DNA from: Sphaerolaimus hirsutus
Lineage: Eukaryota; Nematoda; Chromadorea; Monhysterida; Sphaerolaimidae
Assembly: GCA_964036195.1 (NCBI GenBank)
Contig: OZ038450.1
Span: forward strand, 24,953,208-25,017,207
Direction: 5' to 3'
Length of the DNA stretch: 64,000 nt
The notes under the pieces are model-generated. The model ran no database searches. It was not told where the DNA came from and saw nothing but the letters and a program-made list of their open reading frames with translations. Position numbers and translations under genes: made by a program. Position 1 is the stretch's first letter. Each line of letters begins with the position of its first letter. Below, one piece after another: positions 4,946-56,600 of this stretch.

Positions 4946-5126
4946 GGGTGCCAGTTCCGCAAATTGAGAAGTAAAATGACGAAAGTGAAGTGAAATGGCA
5001 AGTAAATTGGCAAAAGCTAAGTAAAAAAGAAATAGACGAAGTAATTTCTTGCCATTTTACTTCTCAATTCACTTAGCTTTTTCCATTTCACTTCGCATTA
5101 GCCATTATTCGCGGACCTGGCCCCAG
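4946..5126. repeat. MITE of the CTGGNGCCAGTTCCGC / GAAGTGAAATGGC family
   Basis: It opens GGGTGCCAGTTCCGCAAATT and closes GCGGACCTGGCCCCAG. The interior is GAAGTGAAATGGCAAG-type phrases on one side and their complement on the other, so the whole can fold into a hairpin. Other copies are at 29603, 40621 and 52863. Confidence 0.75.
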
Positions 5127-29600: not shown

Positions 29601-32600
29601 GCCTGGGGCCAGTTCCGCAAAATGAGAAGTGAGAAGTGAAATGGCAAAGGCGAAGTAAAAGCGCAAAGGCCAAGTGAAACGGCAAGTGAATTGGCAAAAG
29701 CGAAGTGAAAAAATAAAAATAAAAAACAATTTCTCTTCGCTTTCGCCATTTCATTTCACCTTTGCGCTTTTACTTCGCATTTGCCATTTCACTTCTCACT
29801 TCTTATTTTGCGGAACTGACACCAGGTGCAGTCCCGCACCCTGTAAAGTCAAGTGTCAAACACTTTGCATGATTATTGACATGACACTTTACAGGGTGCG
29901 CGACTGCGCGGATGTGATATTTGCTAACGAATGAGTTGCCTCACTGTTGACGTTAATAGCGCGCACATCTGATATTGACATAAAAAATCCAAAATATCGC
30001 GCCACATATTGCATATCCATAGCCAAAATCGGCCAAAATTTGGAAATTTATTTTGTTATTTTTGATACATCAATAACCCAAATAGGTAGGTATATAATCT
30101 CAGTAAACTGGACAGACAGATCGCTATACAATGAATGCTACCATATTTTGATGAATAAAGTCACAGCAAAAATGCACCAAATTCACCCAAAGTGGAACCA
30201 ATGTGATAAATATGATGAGAAAATTTTGTTATGTTTTTTTATTCAAATGGAATATGATAGATTTCATTGTAAGTTGTAATGTCGCTGGAGTATACATCAA
30301 AACGTAACCCCCCCCAGGCCCTCTCCCTTCTCCTCCAGTCTGGCGACACGGACGAATCCCTTCGCCTGTGCATCGAATGCGTCGCCGCGGCCCACAGCGA
30401 AAATTTGGCCCGTTTACTGATCAGCCACTTGTTGGGCGACAGAGATGGCGTCCCCAAGGACCCCAAGCACATTTTCAGACTTTATGTGGCCCTAAAGATG
30501 TACAGGGAGGCGGCTAAAACTGCTGTGATTATTGCCGAGGATGAACAGAATAGGGGTGTGTGTTTTTTGGGGGTGGAATTTTTCGTAGACTTTTTTTATC
30601 GATCGAATTAGAGCATCGTTGCGCGGGCGCAAGCAACAATTGATTTTCGGGTTCACGTAATATTCATGTGGCGCTTGTTATAGTATGTGTCACCACGACT
30701 GGTTTAGATAGATATGTGTGTGTAGGTGTAGTTGCACAGGCGTCAAGATTCATACCGAGATATGCTGATGTCATATTTACATCTGCCCAAAATTTACCGC
30801 GCGTGGCAAACTAACCGCGCACCAGAGGCCATTCCCAGGCCTAGGGTTCAAACGGGATTGACTTTTGGGGATCGGGATCGGGATTCACTTTTTGAGATTT
30901 CGGGATCGGGATCGGGATTGGGGTTTCGGGATCGGGATCGGGATCGGGATTGGTTTTTTGAGATTTCGGGATCGGGATCGGGATTGGCCGGAATTGGGGT
31001 CACGGGATCGGGATCGGGATTGAGATATGCATTTTTCCGGGATCGGGATTGGGTTCTAGGAATAGAGATTTTGGCCATTTTTTATGGCATTCACAGTTGT
31101 TCATAAAGGTCTCAAAACACTGTTGGATGTAAGAAAAGTGGCATAAAATTGACGCTGGGGGTTTGCATCCACTTTTTTGCATGCAAAAACGTCATTATTT
31201 CACTTCTTATAATTTCCACTAATTTTTCCGGGATCGGGATCCCGGACTTGGGAGTTTCTCGGGATCGGGATCGGGATTTGAAAATTTTCGGGATCGGGAT
31301 CGGGATTGGTATTTTTGAGATTTCGGGATCGGGATCGGGATTGGGGTTTCGGGATCGGGATCGGGACTGGTAAATCCCGGAATTTCACGGGATCCGGGAT
31401 CGGGATCGGGATCCCGTTTGAACCCTACCCAGGCCCTGTAAAATTTCATGCGAAGTGTCAAAAGTCATGTAAAATTCACTGTAAAATGTCAAACGGCGTG
31501 TTAATACACCAAAGAAAATTTTGTATTTCACAGCGCATTTCACATGACTTGACACTTTTCATGCCATTTGACATTTTACAGGTTTGACATTTGCCCCCCT
31601 CCACCGCCCACAGGCAGCTACCGGTCCGCGCACGGCGTGCTGTTCGGCATGCAACAACAGCTCACCGCCGCCCGGCTGCCCGTGCCCGCCGAGATGCGGC
31701 ACGCTCTCATGTTGCTGCACAGCTATTTGATTGTCAAGGTGGGTTTGTCGGTGGTTGTTTTTCGTTTGTCGGCGAGAAAGGTTTTTAATGGAAAGGTATA
31801 TTTTAATGGAGAGCCCACGTCAAGGGATGTTGGGCTGTTGGGATGGAATAAGGGCATAAACGAATTTTCAACTGTTTTTTTTTACCAGAAACATTCAGAT
31901 AAAATTTTGTAACCCTCATTAATATTGACAATAGAAATACGGTTAGGCTAAATCTTTCGTCTCTGCATCTGTCGAGAAAATCGTTCGCCTTTCAGTGTAG
32001 TGGGTAGGTATTTGACAAATTATAACAGTTTTTTAGAAGATAAACTTTCCACCAACTCTCTACATTAAAAAGACACAATTGTAACCAATCACTTCTCATC
32101 CATTGAAATGAATGTATTAAATTTAACACGCAGCCGCTGATCAAGCGCGGCGAGCACACCAAGGCGGCCATGATGCTCGTGCGCGTGTCCGACTCAATTT
32201 CCAAATTTCCCGCCCGTGCGTTTATCTGGTGTCGTTTCTACGCTTCTATAGTACGCCAAGAAACTAAGTCGATTTGCAAGTGCAAAACCAGCTATATTCG
32301 GCGGACCGCAATGTATGCACGGTAACCTACCATAATTTAATGAATAAAATCTTGTGATAACTTTCATGAGTAATTCTTCAATAGTAAAAACGAAATATTA
32401 TGATGAAAGCTGTATAATTTTTGGGGTTTTTTTTCAGATGGATTATGGTAGGTTTCCATACTAAGTGTGATGTCCGCCGAGTACCTATATGTAAAAACGT
32501 ACCCTTAAGGTATCCGAAAATTTTGACTCGGGATAGATAGGCTGAGCATCCCCGGGGATAGATAAAGCTGGAACGTTTGGGGGGAGGGGGGGGTAACCCC

Positions 32601-34160: not shown

Positions 34161-34341
34161 ATGACTTTCTGAGTTCTGTCTTTCCCGATCCGGCGCGATG
34201 CAGCGATTCTAGCCACGTTTATGTGATTTATATATTTTTTCTGTTAACTGGAACGAGATTTGATTAGCGCGACGTTTTTTTTCGGGCGGCCAGGTCCATT
34301 CAAAAGGTGGTGAATTTATGCCGCTGTTTCAGTGCCGTTTT

Positions 34342-37300
34342 GGGCCCACACACGCTAATTGACATTCGTTTTGATGTATCGATAATGTCAATTCAGAGTC
34401 AACTGCCAATTTCGTGATTGACGCGGAGACACTTTTAGTTGAAAACGTGCGCAGAAATTTTGTGTCAACTAGCAGTAGACATTTTGTGTGGTAGTGTTTG
34501 AGTCAAATAAAGTGTACGCGTGCGTTTTACTGCGCACGCGTTCGCGAAAAAGCGGACGCGTCCGTTTTCCTGCGTACGCGTTCGTTTCTGAGCAGTATGC
34601 GATTTTAATTGCTAAATGTAACTTGTTGAAAAAGTTAATTAGATTTTATGTTTTTAAGTACATATTTAAGTATTTTACAAGTGAAATATGTGTTTTTTGT
34701 GATATTTATCATGTATTTTTATTTTTGTTGATATTTACATATATATATTTCAAAGTCATTTTAATTACATTTTTTATATCAGTTTACGAATTTTCAAGAT
34801 GAAATAAAGTGAAATTTTACAAAATTTGAATGGATCATGAGATCAAGTGACATTTTAAAATGCAAAATATGTAAATTATGTAATATTTTTCAAGGGAAAT
34901 AACACACAGTAAGTAAAACAATTGCTGTTCTATTTCATGACAGCAAAAATAAAGTTCAACGATTTTAGCAAAAAAGTAACAAAAACGAGTAACAAAAACA
35001 AGACTCGTTGATTGACAAGATTTGAATTTTGTAAACTAGAAAAACACAGTACCATTTTCATGAGATTGCCTTTTGCAGTATCATTTTGCCTTTTAAGTTG
35101 ACATTGTCTGTTTTCAAGAATGCATAAGAATTGTAAAGTTTATCAAAACATGTCATAATTTGTCATAATAAATGTCAACTTAAGCAAAGTTGACAACAGA
35201 AACATTGTTTAAAAAGTTATAATTTAATTGACATTTTTGTGTGTGGTGTCAATTGCAGTTGAAATGCTTGAAGAAGGGTAAATGTCTACTGAGGGTATCA
35301 AAAATGTCAATTGACTGAAAAGTGTACGTGGCGAACGTTTTTTTTCCCAAATTTTGCATGCAGTTGACGCAAGTTTGTTGCGAACCATCTCAAATGCTGA
35401 AAACGTTCGAAAATATGCGAATTTTCAGCAGTTGACGCTGCGCTCGCCGACTTACTAAAAGTAACTTAATTAATGCAGTTTGTGTTATATTTTTATGAAA
35501 TTTAAGGTGATGTAAGAGAAAAATATGACACACATTTTTCTGTAGCATAGTTTTTGTGCGGAAACGCTTCAAAATCAAATTAGAATTTTTTTTGTGAAAT
35601 TTAAAAACTTCAATTGACATCAGGATTTTGTTTGGAATGGATGCGAAAGCATAGTTGACACACATTAAATATTAATTTTTTCAACTGCAAAATTGTTTTA
35701 GCAATAAATGTCTATAGAAAACTAATTGTATGCATGCAAATTCGGTGTTTCCATGCGCAGGCAGCGGGGCTAGATACTTCAATTACAAAGGACATTATTC
35801 CATCATAATGTTTATTTCTGCATCAGCTGATTTGAAGGTGCAGTACGTGGATATCGGTGCTCCTGGTGCTCAGTCCGATTCTGGTGTTTTGCTGACGTCT
35901 AGTTTTGGGCAAGACCTGATGTCAGTTTACTTTCATTGTACTTACTTATGTATCATACATCTTATTTGACCCTTTTCAGTTGACAAATTGGTATACATTT
36001 TGACAAATTAGTATATGCTAATTTTTTTGCAGAAATGGCCGATTGCTGATGCCGAAACCTGCGCTTCTCCCTGGCAGTGACCCGTACGATCAAACCAACT
36101 ACATCCCCAGCTGCTTTTTGGGTGACCAAGCATTTCCGTTGAGCCGCTGGTGTTTGGTGCCATTCAAAATTCAAAGATGTCATTCAAACTAACGCAGCCA
36201 ACAGGCACTTCAATACAAGGTGACTGCTTCAATTTTTTTTGTTTGTGTAATAATTTTGAATGGGTGTTGTGAACTTTTTCCATGCATATTTGAACCTATA
36301 TTTATCATTCAGTTGACAAAGATACACAAAAATGAATTTTTTGTATCAATTGGATTTATAATCATCTAATTATATACTTCTTTTTCAGGTTGTCTCGCGC
36401 TAGGAGAACTGTTGAATGCGTTTTCGGTATGCTGGCGGCTCGCTGGCGAATTTTGCTGGGCACCATCTGCATGGAACCGGAACGCGTCAGCAGGATGGTG
36501 ATGGCGTTGTGCGTGCTGCACAACTGGCTGCAAGTGACGCGCGGCAGCACAATCGATGATCACTTTGACGAGGATGGCGATGAAAGGGCGCCGCTGCAGG
36601 GCGTCAGGGATCACCCTTCGCTTCGCGACCGCAATGTGAGACTTACATTTATTGTTGAATTTTAGTTTTTATTAATAATGTCAACTCCTACTGCAGCTTG
36701 ATTGGCGCGCCGCGGTTGACAATATGATCAACTTAGAGCCAGCTGACCAGCGCGCTGCTGAAGCCATTCGCCAGATGAGGGGCGTGCGCGAGAAGATCAA
36801 GGAGTGGATGAAAGAGGGTGATGGCAGAGTGCCATGAATAAACTGGCGCGATTGCTGAATTGACATTTTTGAAATTCAAAACGATATCAAGTATTCTAAA
36901 TGTTGATAGAAACAATTTCAGTTGACACATTTGATGTATTTGTTGTTGTCAATTCAGCAATATTTTTGGCTATTTACAAATTTAATTTAAAAAATCGAAA
37001 ATGCTTACATTTCATCAAATTTTTGGTGGAGAATGTAAGGAAAATTTTTCTCTATCGATCTATACATATAGAACTTTAATAGTTGTTGTCAAAATTTTTT
37101 TAAAAATGTTTAATTATCAAAGCTGTGAAAAATCATATCTTTCGATTTACAAGCTCGATTCTTTCCAAAAAAATACTGCTATGTAGTGCTTTCTTTCGCC
37201 ATCATGTTGCTATCTTTGTTTTTGTTACATCGCGAAAATTTGTTTGATGAAAAATAAAATTTGATTTGAAGAAAAATATTTTTGAATCTTGCAAACAATT

Positions 37301-40620: not shown

Positions 40621-40784
40621 CCAGATGCCAGTTCCGCAAGTCGAGAAGTGAGAAATTTCATTTCAAATTTCACTTCGCTTTTCACTTCTCATTTCACTTC
40701 GCTTTTCACTTCTCATTTCACTTCTCATTTCACTTCGCTTTTCACTTCTCATTTCACTTCTCCACTTGCGGAACTGTCCCCTGC
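40621..40784. repeat. MITE of the CTGGNGCCAGTTCCGC family
   Basis: CCAGATGCCAGTTCCGCAAG to CTTGCGGAACTGTCCCC, with tandem CACTTCTCATTTCACTTCGC inside. Confidence 0.7.
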
Positions 40785-50600: not shown

Positions 50601-53600
50601 TTTGACTGTTTAAATGACCCTTTTACCGTTTTTGTCAATTTTTCATTCATTGGCTCCGTTCCAATGGAAGAGTCCCCATATGAGAACTTGGCAGCCAGCC
50701 AAAATTGCGAAATCCGCTATTAATGTGAATAAAAAAGGCTAACACTAACTAAACACCTTCCCGGACAAGTTCACCACCCATTTTTTTATTTCACTTCGGA
50801 AGCTATATCTATGGCTATGGTGGGGTTAAAGAGCTGAAAATTTGTCAATATATACTTGTAACATCCCTCTACTCTGTATCAGTGGGGGGAAGCATGGCGA
50901 CCAACCACAGGGTGGGTCGCCCTATAAGCAAAAAATTTTTGCCGGGTTTTCCGTGTCCCAAACAAGTACACCACCCCCTTGATTAGCTACACTAAAGGGG
51001 CTGTATCTCCAGTTGCAGGGGTGGTAGAAAGCTAAAATTTTTGGGGTATTTTGGCAACACCCACCCCTACTAAATGCCAGTGGGGCAGCTCCCGACGACC
51101 CACTACAGTTTGTGCCGCTGTATATAAAATTGTTGTTTTTTAAAAAACCGACCCAAGTGTCCCAAGCAAGTTCACCACCTAAACAAATTAAAATTTTTTT
51201 TTTAGAACATACCTTATATAAAAACTGAATCAGGTTTTAACCCTACTTCTGCTAATTACATTTTTTTCCTTTGTTTAGCCACCCCCATCATAAATGGCAG
51301 ACCGAAAATTTCACTTTAAACCAATTTTTTGTTTCACACTTTCAAAGGTGGTTTACAAAGTTCACTAGAGAATGGTCTAAGGTTCAAAGTTATGTAAACA
51401 ACATATCCTCTAAAATGCTTCCATAAGTAAATTTATTTGGGGTGAATGAAAAAAAAAAATTTTGTCAAATTTTGTTCCTGAAATGACATCATTTTGACAT
51501 CATAGAATTCACCCCAAGTAAATTTCCTTATGGAGGCATACAAGAGGTTATGTTGTTTACATAACTTTGAACCTTAGACCATTCTCTAGTGAACTTTGTA
51601 AACCAACTTTTTAAGTGTGAAACAAAAAATTGGTTTAAAGTGAAATTTTCGGTCTACCGTTTATGGGACAGGGTGGGTGCCCTACTGAAAAAAATTTTGG
51701 TGGCTGAACTAGGGTTCCAACCCGATTCTGTTTTATGTTAGGTATGTTGTTGCAACATTTTTTTAAATGCAGTTGGGTGATGAACTTGTTTTGGGACACT
51801 TGGGCTGTTTTTAGAAAATGGTCAACTTTATATGCAGTGACCCATGCTTTAGTGGGTCGTCCGCAGCCGCCCCACTGGTGTATTGTGAGGGGGGTTGTTG
51901 GCATGACATCCCCCAAATTTCAGCTTTATACTGCCATCACAGCTGGAGATATGGCTCTTGTAGTGTAGCCAATCAAGTGGGTGGTGAACTTGATTGGGAC
52001 ACCAAAAACGCCAAAAAAATGTTGCATATAGGGCGACCGACCCTGTAGTGAGTCGCCGCACCTCCCCCTCATTGTTGGGGAGTAGAGGGGTCTTACAACT
52101 TTATATTTACAAAGTTTCAGCTTTATAACACCCCCATGGACGGAGATTTTGCATTTGAAGTGAAATAAAAAAATGGGTGGTGAACTTGTCCGGGAAGGTG
52201 TTTATATAACCATGTATATAAACAAAAATAGCGATTAGAAAGGTGGAAATTGGCAAAGGGGAGCAACTTTAAACGATTTTTAGCTAACTTTGACTTGTCA
52301 CTCGCATTTGTATAATACGCAACTGGAAACTGGGATAAGAGCCAAGTTTTCATATGTGACCCGATCCATTCCAATCATTAAAATATTGCGTCACAATAAT
52401 GACGACATGCACTCTCCACTGGAGAGACTGACGCAAATGTTTGTAGGGCGATACGTCTGCCGACTTTACTTACTAATATTAGTCTACAGGAGTTCATAAA
52501 TGTCAGTTATTGATGCATTTTTCTACCCCAGCGCACATTGTACTTGATTGTACATGTAAACAACGATTTTGTACTAGGATTTCAAAAAATTTCTTGCGAA
52601 ATAATAACCCCCCCCCCTCCCGAATAATAATTCGGGGAAATACGGTAGGGTAGGTATTTGGCACTTGAGGATACCTAGGTATGTATATTGAGAGTAAAAG
52701 TAAATACATGTTTCCAACTGTGCCTGTTTCCCAACTACGCTTTATCACTCAACATTTGGATACGCAGGCGGCAAGCCGACGACAGTGATGACCACGACCA
52801 GGGCCACCGCGGCGCCCACCACCACGTTGCCGGGCAGAATTTGCGACACCAATGTCAACCTGGTGCCAGTTCCGCAAATTGAGTAGTGAGAAGTGAAATG
52901 GCAAAAGTGAAGTGAAATGGCAAAAGTGAAGTGAAATGGCAAGTAAATTGGCAAAAGCGAAGTAAAAAAAATAAAAAATAAAAAAGCAAGTTATCTTCGC
53001 CTTTGCCATTTTACTTCTCAATTCATTTTGCTTTTGCCATTTCACTTCTCACTTCTCAATTTGTGGAACTGGCCCCAGATATTTCTGCTCGATGGCTCTG
53101 GGAGTGTTAACCTGTTCGGTAGAAAAGACAATTTTAATAGTATGTGGTTTTCATCGCTTTATTTAAGGATGGTTACTTATGGTGGCAAATACATTTGTTT
53201 TAATTTTTGATTCCACTACTTCAATTGCTTTTTTTCTAGAAAAGAATTTTAGAAAGTGTTTCATTTTATTTATTTTGTATTTTTGGTTCAAAATACAACT
53301 ATAAAGTGCATAAAAACTTTTTTTACATGGGAACTTTCAGATGCATGCTTCGCGTGCTTACCCTACCTACCTTACAACCTTACTTCACTTCTCATTCAAA
53401 ATTTTTTCAATGCTTTAACAGCTAGAATTTTACTATGCGTTTCATTGAACTGTTTCATTGCAGAGCTTTGTATCATGAAAATGTCAGTCAAAATTTTGTA
53501 ATTAATTTTTTATATACTCATTTTTCTCAATTATACTTCAGAGTTTGTGTTGAACTCCACTGCGGAAGTGGTCGGACGTCGAACAGACTGCACAACTAAA

Positions 53601-56600
53601 TTTGGAAATTTTCGCGTTGCTGTAATCATTTTTGGCACAATTCCAGATGTTAAAGGATTCAAAATGCTTGAAGGCAAGATGAATGCCGAAGTCCAGGTGG
53701 GTTGCAGAACGGCTGACGTGTGTTCATACTGTTTATGTGTTTATGTTCATGTCTATGCTAGAATGGCTGACTGATCCCCATCAAGTGTGTAAAGCGGCAG
53801 TGAAAAAATTCTCGAAAATTTACGTTCTGAGATTGTGCCGAATAGCTCCTTACAAAATTGTACATCACTGATTTGATCTCAAACATGTACTCTCCAAACA
53901 TTTGTGATCATTTGAAATGTCAGACAATCAAAATCGGTCAATAAATAACACTCGACGATTGAATTAATGACCAGGTTTGGTTTTAGTAAAATTATCTTCT
54001 CTAAAATTGTATAAAAATTGTATTTTATTTTAATTCTTGTATTTTATTTTATTCTTCTATTTTCCAATTAATTTTTACTTTATTCTTCAATTTTCCATTT
54101 TATTTTAATTTTATTTTTATTGTTTGTTTTAGTTTGTGACCAGGATTGGTTTTAGTAAAATTCTTTTTACTAAAATTGTATGATAATTATATTTTATTTA
54201 AATTTTATTCATGTTTCATTTTATTTTATTTTAGTCTTCATTTTTTTCATTTTATTTTTATTTTATTTATATATTTTTCTGAGATTTTGCCAACCCTGTT
54301 ACTGACATTCAAAATGACCCCGGTCCAGGTTACATCCAAAATCCCCCACCCCAAATATATGATTCCAGGTTATTTTCACCCCATGGATATATACTTCTGC
54401 CCGGGGACTAGTTTGCCCAACTTTTATAATGTGAGGGGGAAAGTCCTCCATAAAAAAATAGTTTGAAATGGTACATTAAGTAAGTCTACTTCCCCCTGAC
54501 CGCTCTAATTACTCTATTTGGGCATCTGTTTGGATTCAGTAATGGGTGCTATGTGTTTGATTTTTCCGTTTATCTCATTTGATGCAAGAACAATGCTTGC
54601 ACCAAATAAAAATCATTTATTGACACATGGCCCTCCAAAATTATGTCTGTTATGCCAATTGGCATTGATTATTGTTTGCGTGGGTGCATGAAGAACAATG
54701 CATGCAACTCAAAACTCTTTTTTCTCAGCCATTTCTCAGCTGATTTTCACCAATGTACACTTAAAATGATCAGAATCACGTGGAGATTGCATTTTGAGTG
54801 GTCAGTTGGGCACTATTAGTGTTTTGTCTGTGCACTATTAGCATTTTGTCTGTGCGCTATTGGCATTTTGTCCATGCGCTATTAGCATTTTGTCTATGTG
54901 TACTATTACTGTAACTTTTTATGTAAAGATATAATCTGAACCAAAAATGCAACCACATGTGATTCTGATCATTTTAAGTGTTCATTGATTAATACATGGC
55001 TATTTCTCAGCTGATTTTTACCAATAAACACTAAAAATGATCAGAATCACATGGAGATTGCAATTTTAGTGCTCTATTAGCGTTTTGTCTGTGCGTTATT
55101 AGTGTTTTGTCTGTGTGTTGTAAGCGTGTTGTCTGTTCACTATTAGTGTTTTGTCTGTGCACTATTAGTGTTAACTTATATTATAAATGTATGATCTGAA
55201 CATAAAAATATCTCCATGTGATTCTGATCATTTCAAGTGTTCATTGGTGAAAATCTGTGGAGAAATGGCCAAGATATAGAGTTTTGAAGTTGCAAGCACC
55301 CATACAAACGATAATCGATGAGGCTTAATAGACGCGTGCATAATTGTTGAGTGCCATGCATCAATAAATATATTTTATCTCATGGCTCAACAGACATCAA
55401 ATTGTAATTTATCTGTAATATTGTAATATATTTCATTGTAAAATTCAATTGTATTTCAGTCAGAAGACTATATTTGATCTGCAGTTAAGCATAAATGCAT
55501 CACCCTGCAATGCAATGTTGCAATTCTGCTGTGCGTATAGAGCTATGCATGTAAATAGCATGGAGAAGATGTCCATGGGGGGAAATTGGTAGTTAGCCGA
55601 AATATATCTACCTTCTTGAGTTACTGGTAGCGATTTGGGTGATGATACATATTTAAATCTGATAAGCAATTTAATTAGAATTTTGTATTTGCATGAAATA
55701 CCCGCGGGGGTTTATCTTTTCATGGTGAGATTGTTTGAGGGAGTTTGAAGGGGTATTTCGGAGGGACATCATGAAATTTATATTTTTAGTAAATAATATA
55801 CCCGAAATCGGTAATAAATGTGTCAAATATTATATTTTTGACATAACAAGTTGAATAATGTATAACACTTAATGAAGTCTAAATGCCAACAGTTTATTTT
55901 ACTATCAAAATAAAGTGAAATTATCACTTCCATGTTCAGTTTCTTGATGTTGCCACAAATAAAGTTGCAAAAATAATACCAGCTTCGCGATGGCAATACA
56001 ATATCTTTTAATGATTTGGTTTTTATAATAAAACACAATGTTTTTTATAGAAAAACCATTGACAAATGCCACCTGTAAACCACCTGTAAAATTACATGTA
56101 AAGCCAATGGCAATGGTTGGAAAGCAGCTTCCCTTGTCAGAAACAAGTATTTTTTTATTCACAAGGGAGCACTTATCATATGTAAATTATCAGCTACAAC
56201 CTGGGATTTATCAGGTATTTTTGAAAAGGAGTATTTGTTTACCCTCTGTAATGGTGAATGAATGGTGGGGGCTCGCTTACCACACACACAAATTTTACCT
56301 AGACAAACGTGCCATTATACTGGCACCACAACATGGCATGATTGGCAATAAGAAACTTGAGTTTTAACATCATTCAATACATATGCCAAGCCAATCAATG
56401 ATATATCATGCATCTGGTGTGGAAATGTGCACTCGTGTGCAAAATTTTTGAAAAATATGTCAAAAAATTCATATCAAAATTGAAATTTTTTGACATTCTG
56501 TAATTGGAACCCCGGCTCGAAATTTGCCAAAATTTCGAGTCGAGCCAGGCAAAAACCTCGAGTCTCGAGTCAGGGCCATATTTTTCCGGTCGAGTCAGCC

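Follow-up and report, generated by a model that had tools for sequence, protein, structure and literature searches.

A NuwaI-type MITE in a vWA exon of the nematode Sphaerolaimus hirsutus as a probable recent intron

The window analysed here, a stretch of 64,000 nucleotides from the genome of S. hirsutus, contains a gene in which a MITE interrupts the beginning of a vWA domain. The same position is uninterrupted in paralogous genes; the MITE is thus a recent insertion into a vWA exon, and its excision together with one copy of the target rebuilds the ancestral reading frame. With a probability of roughly 0.8, we propose that a NuwaI-type MITE entered the first strand of the vWA domain at a CTG codon and now acts as a spliceosomal intron, which would extend from 52863 to 53078. 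The origin of new introns is a long-standing question, and few clear cases, above all in animals, display the element, its target and the empty site together. For animals and land plants combined, the sections of a survey of introners (introns made by transposons) consulted here place them in two taxonomic groups (PMC9860276).

The interrupted vWA exon and its empty site

The upstream exon (52768–52862, forward strand, as are all parts of the gene) ends in ...CDTNVNL with the codon CTG, and its aligned pieces are 88–93% identical to three paralogues. This final codon (52860–52862) is at the same time the left copy of a CWG target site, which is present as a single CTG at the empty site of the paralogue on contig C7. 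It is followed by the MITE of 213 bp (52863–53075), which starts with GTG, providing GT as the putative donor, and ends with CCC. The right target copy (53076–53078) reads CAG instead of CTG, and its AG is the inferred acceptor. The inferred intron is 216 bp long, since one target copy adds three bases to the 213 of the MITE. The downstream exon, IFLLDGSGSVNLFGRKDNFN (53079–53139), represents the start of the vWA domain and leads into a GTATGT donor, and the following vWA exon, KFVLNSTAEVV...NAEVQ (53542–53696), which shares 45–46% identity with the exons of the C9 paralogue, leads into a GTGGGT donor.

The interval 52863–53078 is near-palindromic, with the opening bases GTGCCAGTTCCGC and the closing bases GGAACTGGCCCCAG, and RNA comprising the MITE and its target bases is predicted to fold into a single, long hairpin (−109 kcal/mol, z −16.8). 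The right arm of the window MITE is pyrimidine-rich; the last AG before the terminal one ends at 52990, with none in between. The first-pass annotation had quoted the two termini of this interval, which are indeed located at 52863 and 53065–53078, and had described the intron as a MITE from end to end. This description holds for 52863–53075, but the last three bases, CAG, are the right copy of the CWG target, as follows from the flanks of the family copies and from the paralogous empty site. Accordingly, of the two intron ends that were assigned to the MITE termini, the GT lies within the MITE, but the AG lies in the target duplication and not in the inverted terminus. Exact excision of 52863–53078 yields CDTNVNL^IFLLDGSGSV, just as had been claimed. 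Translation of the unspliced sequence does meet an early stop, which was said to come after eight codons; the frame reads VPVPQIE and then a stop, i.e., the stop is itself the eighth codon.

A translated search of the genome with the joined vWA product retrieved three other loci, at 1.669 Mb on C7 and at 22.944 and 23.165 Mb on C9, and in 3/3 of them the residues flanking the junction lie in one frame. The C7 paralogue reads GACACCAATGTCAACCTGATATTTCTGCTCGATGG, which is the window sequence minus 52863–53078, with 18 identical bases on each side. The C9 copies align with the joined exons over the junction at 88–89% nucleotide identity and with no gap. At the empty site, the target is a single CTG in C7 and TTG in both C9 copies. 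The uninterrupted vWA paralogues mark the insertion as new, so that taking it out restores the ancestral frame. The expectation that related genes would lack the intron was checked on paralogues of the same genome and agrees with 3/3 intron-free loci, of which the two on C9, near-identical at 98% over 1.6 kb, are duplicates and count as one independent witness. A genome search with the VWA profile (PF00092) extends the comparison: 27 of the 53 matches listed start at profile position 1–3, the insertion lies between positions 2 and 3, and 24/27 matches, starting at position 1 (22) or 2 (2), span the insertion position unbroken, while those starting at 3 (3/27) are uninformative. Some matches in this list are mutual duplicates, and one contains stops.

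The MITE family and its CWG target

Relatives of the element had been noted at 4946, 29603 and 40621, and copies are present in the window at 4948–5123 (forward strand, with no evident exon around it), at 29606–29822 (reverse strand; 34179–34395 in reverse-strand coordinates) and, in a diverged form, at 40625–40780 (forward strand). With up to 3 mismatches allowed, the two termini match the window 25 and 17 times, compared to means of 10.5 and 3.7 in shuffled sequence, and 0/100 shuffles equal either count. A chance terminal match is ruled out by these shuffle counts and by the existence of a genome-wide family. In the complete genome (348 Mb), when up to 2 mismatches are tolerated, the 22-base 5' terminus is found 2,366 + 2,328 = 4,694 times, and a reversed control 0 times. 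Because either end of one MITE may match the terminus pattern, the copy number is best expressed as a range, between about 2,000 and 4,700. A DNA similarity search of the genome, in which 40 of 2,304 candidates were scored, recovered the window copy and at least 39 others with 82–88% identity, reverse-strand echoes being set aside from these 39.

In total, 80 copies were parsed: 4 from the window, 21 picked by similarity (20 loci), 37 from C1 and 18 from C2. The C1 set was selected by an exact 5' terminus, with 34/40 loci used and 6/40 lacking a separate pair of ends; the C2 set derives from 20 short loci, of which two have no right end, and includes three chosen from one cluster. One false pairing, starting at 52720 in the window, is excluded from the 80, and three duplicate loci were dropped from them, which leaves 77 copies for the analysis of flanks. 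Together, the 80 copies give a consensus of 218 bp (GTGCC...GGCCC), which is of the GGG type at one end and GTG at the other, where T at the second base creates the GT. The window MITE diverges from this consensus by 9.7%, with 2 indels (the median of the 80 copies is 8.3%).

CWG triplets are found on both sides in 57/77 copies (CTG/CTG 24, CAG/CAG 16, CTG/CAG 12, CAG/CTG 5), and in the other 20/77, one side or both carry a different triplet. Left and right CWG are identical in 40/57 copies, which is above chance (Fisher p = 0.002). Mixed triplets, CTG/CAG or CAG/CTG, make up 17/57, which is seemingly more than expected from point mutation at one base. The copies picked by similarity (n = 21) show a GT start in 17 cases, a left CWG in 19 and a right CWG in 17, and the remaining sets were chosen by a terminus that already contains CWGGT; it is therefore from the flanks of the similarity-picked copies that the MITE is delimited as GTG...CCC and CWG is identified as its target duplication. 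A family that is this abundant and that occurs with CTG/CTG, CTG/CAG and CAG/CAG flanks would allow a direct comparison of the splicing requirements of inserted elements.

Among the PHIS (PIF/Harbinger-related) transposons, the NuwaI group is characterized, in the parts of its description drawn on here, by CWG duplication and by termini that are usually GGG (Han et al. 2015, PMC4482050). The present family resembles NuwaI as portrayed there in its CWG target duplication and in its 3' end, which is GGGCC on the other strand, but differs in that the MITE is non-autonomous, with a length of about 213 bp, and in that its 5' end, GTGCC, is one base away from GGG (PMC4482050). The GT donor thus results from a single-base departure of the 5' end from GGG. 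A search of the literature available without subscription found no link between NuwaI and introns. NuwaI transposons are associated with a DDE transposase and a Myb/SANT protein. The genome also contains at least 163 matches to the DDE_Tnp_4 profile, without a tie to the MITE termini. Among the matches listed, many extend over 633 bp for 147 profile positions and include four TGA (e.g., C1:20514088–20514720), as if an intron, or some other insert, of about 190 bp lay within a transposase gene.

MITE copies in HSP70 and other genes

An HSP70 gene (C2:11.197 Mb) is interrupted by a sense-oriented copy of the same MITE family, with CTG|GT...CCCCAG|GG at STAGDTHL|GGNDFD, a position at which the HSP70 gene on C13 is unbroken. 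A duplicate of this gene (copy B; C2, 2.866 Mb) retains the MITE, whose length differs between the two copies (247 and 269 bp, target bases included). Across 284 bp of flanking exon, the two copies differ by 12 synonymous changes and 1 nonsynonymous change (dS 0.21, dN 0.005), and within the MITE by 15 mismatches over 227 aligned positions, plus four gaps; both copies retain the terminal GT and AG of the MITE. The MITE is therefore likely spliced out, as the exons on either side evolve under strong purifying selection with the MITE inside. Barring gene conversion between the copies, such constraint would likely be hard to explain without splicing. The joined product of copy A matches PF00012 with 320 bits, and the joined HSP70 product aligns gap-free with a heat shock cognate chain at both insertion junctions. 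Among the best 60 of 156 PDB matches are a heat shock cognate (382 bits), Heat shock protein 70A (341) and SSB1 (302); the top heat shock cognate entries are presumably mammalian, and this order of scores is compatible with an animal host.

This HSP70 gene (L101+L099, C2:11194850–11196905, reverse strand) also contains a second MITE from a different family, at VEKAL|ADSHLDK and with CTG on both sides. Exact excision would correspond to a GT–TG intron, and use of an AAG acceptor 18 nt inside would add six in-frame codons. In other HSP70-like loci, the match is split near the MITE position (query residues 4–39/34–87, 4–41/33–86, 5–42/35–86 and 5–43/29–86). The MITE follows query residue 44, and judging by the match ends these splits are not at that position; those on C3 and C15, which fall some ten residues or less ahead of the MITE, may reflect an older nearby intron.

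It had been suggested that further introns might coincide with this MITE, and in addition to the HSP70 gene two such cases were found, less firmly, at L023 and at the first MITE of L011. L023 (C15) attracted attention by its long frame on either side after removal of the MITE and has CTG/CAG flanks; it has no paralogue in the genome (both matches are L023 itself) and no Pfam match. At L011 (contig C521), a gene with a BTB domain (BTB_2, 24.0 bits at a cut-off of 21.4) contains two MITEs, the first with CTG/CAG flanks. The second (604–815) has CTG/CTG flanks and a right arm without AG, and its site is uninterrupted in the 3 loci read of the four other loci found. Either this second MITE is unspliced, or it uses a TG acceptor, or the gene is broken, which sets a real limit on the claim that the family produces introns. 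Some exonic copies with a right CTG might in fact be spliced at TG. A further copy, L063, is flanked by CAG/CTG; its joined peptide scores 21.3 bits for zf-Di19 (cut-off 27.5), with the best stretch left of the junction.

Across ten joined peptides compared with Pfam, only HSP70 exceeds its cut-off and seven have no match, with short-chain dehydrogenase (25.8 vs 26.6 bits) and UPAR_LY6 (16.0 vs 24.8 bits) below the cut-off. In another seven joined peptides, the BTB-domain one is the only one above the cut-off. Fragments resembling short-chain dehydrogenases occur at L096 and L097 (C2:25.54–25.62 Mb), both with an antisense MITE at the same codon. Over about 200 kb, this region contains nine exact termini; L098, in another context, is one of them. 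Junction-spanning frames of 63 copies reach at least 60 codons in 39 cases in sense and 38 in antisense orientation (medians 76 and 67), and at least 150 codons in 5 and 1, respectively. Given that sense and antisense frames are little different, open frames alone are no proof of an intron.

The flanks of copies in coding sequence are distinctive: CTG/CAG is found in 4/5 of them compared to 8/72 others (Fisher p = 0.002), where the coding copies (the window copy, both of L011, L023 and L089) were chosen by eye after the sequences had been seen. Among copies that combine CTG on the left with a CWG on the right, 4/5 coding copies and 8/31 others have CAG as the right triplet (p = 0.03). The excess of CTG/CAG in this hand-picked coding set fits selection for an AG. 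A coding copy with CAG/CAG flanks, which a simple model of ready-made introns predicts, is absent among the copies called coding.

The family resembles known introners in its predicted mode of action. As in the introners covered by the consulted sections of Gozashti et al. (2022, PMC9860276), a short, dispersed, non-autonomous element shows similarity starting at both intron ends. Further shared features are inverted repeats at the termini, duplication of the target and an unchanged mRNA length, the last of which is predicted in the present case (PMC9860276). Those sections set a minimum of four introns of this kind, in genes unrelated to one another (PMC9860276); the candidates here are vWA and HSP70, which are firm, and L023 and the first MITE of L011, which are likely as judged by open frames only, so that four is reached only with the latter two counted. 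Both in the window copy and in the two HSP70 copies, A and B, the MITE ends coincide with the inferred intron ends, and prior absence is visible at the vWA empty sites (3/3 loci) and in HSP70 on C13. The introner of Chrysochromulina, as outlined in the same source, likewise carries its 5' splice site in the element and co-opts the 3' site from the target (PMC9860276). The combination of an element-borne donor with a target-derived acceptor is hence a known arrangement. It differs in that 4-bp duplications and no inverted repeats are given for Chrysochromulina, whereas a 3-bp CWG duplication and a NuwaI-type hairpin MITE are found here (PMC9860276). The proposal of the first-pass annotation that the vWA intron is an introner gains support from the three intron-free paralogous loci and from the likewise placed MITE in HSP70, and the MITE family as such is probably an introner family. 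In Micromonas and Aureococcus, MITE-like elements reportedly create introns on a genome scale via target duplications, a finding attributed to Huff et al. in 2016. Those elements are said to be unrelated to the present MITE, as are their hosts, and to generate longer target duplications.

Proposed mechanism and competing readings

The MITE inserts at CWG and duplicates the target triplet; in the proposed mechanism, the spliceosome would then take GT from the left end of the MITE and AG from the right target copy. With its pyrimidine-rich sequence, the right arm of the hairpin could serve as the tract, and the long stem might draw the intron ends together. At CTG targets, a normal AG acceptor would require either a T-to-A change in the right copy or a CAG from the outset. 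The donor, GTGCCA, is presumably a poor match to the usual donor consensus. A broader hypothesis, which we put forward tentatively and hold somewhat short of even odds, is that the change from GGG to GTG in one terminus turned NuwaI-type MITEs into ready-made introns, with GT supplied by the MITE and AG by a CAG target, or by a later T-to-A change at CTG targets. The thousands of copies would then cover the birth of introns in all its stages, beginning with exonic insertions that cannot be spliced and ending with introns that are fixed.

The most serious competing explanation, which we consider improbable, is that the MITE broke this vWA copy and is left unspliced, the gene being a young pseudogene or null allele. 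In favor of this reading, the genome also harbors exonic copies that lack a right-end AG, the C7 paralogue carries a further insertion, and splicing of the window MITE is itself a prediction. Moreover, the vWA domain in the window is incomplete: the product reaches 16.1 bits against Pfam, below the cut-off of 23.8, and the remainder of the domain was sought downstream in the window and not found. A PDB search with the vWA product gave no match. However, the MITE is about 10% from its consensus, and 303 bp of exon are nevertheless without a stop or frameshift. Under simulated drift for the age of the window MITE, which divergence from the consensus may overstate, exon sequence of this length escapes both stops and indels in 3% of cases (51% for stops alone). 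Against a broken gene there is also the right target copy, in which CAG puts an AG precisely where it is needed, and the same arrangement in HSP70, which persisted through duplication of the gene while purifying selection was strong. The evidence from the window copy itself is weaker than that from HSP70. Comparison of the vWA exons with the paralogues yields dN/dS of about 0.15 (C7, 32 codons) and 0.38 (C9, 40 codons), and the next vWA exon of about 0.46 (51 codons, dS about 1). These ratios suggest some constraint on the vWA exons over the divergence of the paralogues, a span other than the time since insertion.

Removal of the MITE by other splice sites, with a few codons left behind or some exon lost, appears very unlikely. 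The terminal donor is weak, and in-frame alternatives are available in other MITEs, namely the acceptor in the second HSP70 MITE and a donor in the C7 paralogue, each 18 nt inside. The window MITE, however, has no AG between 52990 and the terminal one, exact excision reproduces the ancestral sequence, and GT and AG at the MITE ends are common to HSP70 copies A and B. That an old intron was later filled by the MITE has next to no probability and is rejected on the paralogous sites, which are intron-free with a single CTG in C7 and a single TTG in C9; nothing specific favors it, only the 3/27 VWA matches starting at position 3 leave room for it, and no bases are present beyond the MITE and the target copy.

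Excision at the MITE's left end and the right target copy is therefore the reading we retain for the vWA gene. The vWA gene family may include dying copies, given the other MITE within the C7 paralogue. This MITE (L070) lies in the upstream exon, is about 192 bp long and starts with GGGG, with a duplication of CAG; an internal GTAACG donor would retain 18 in-frame bases.
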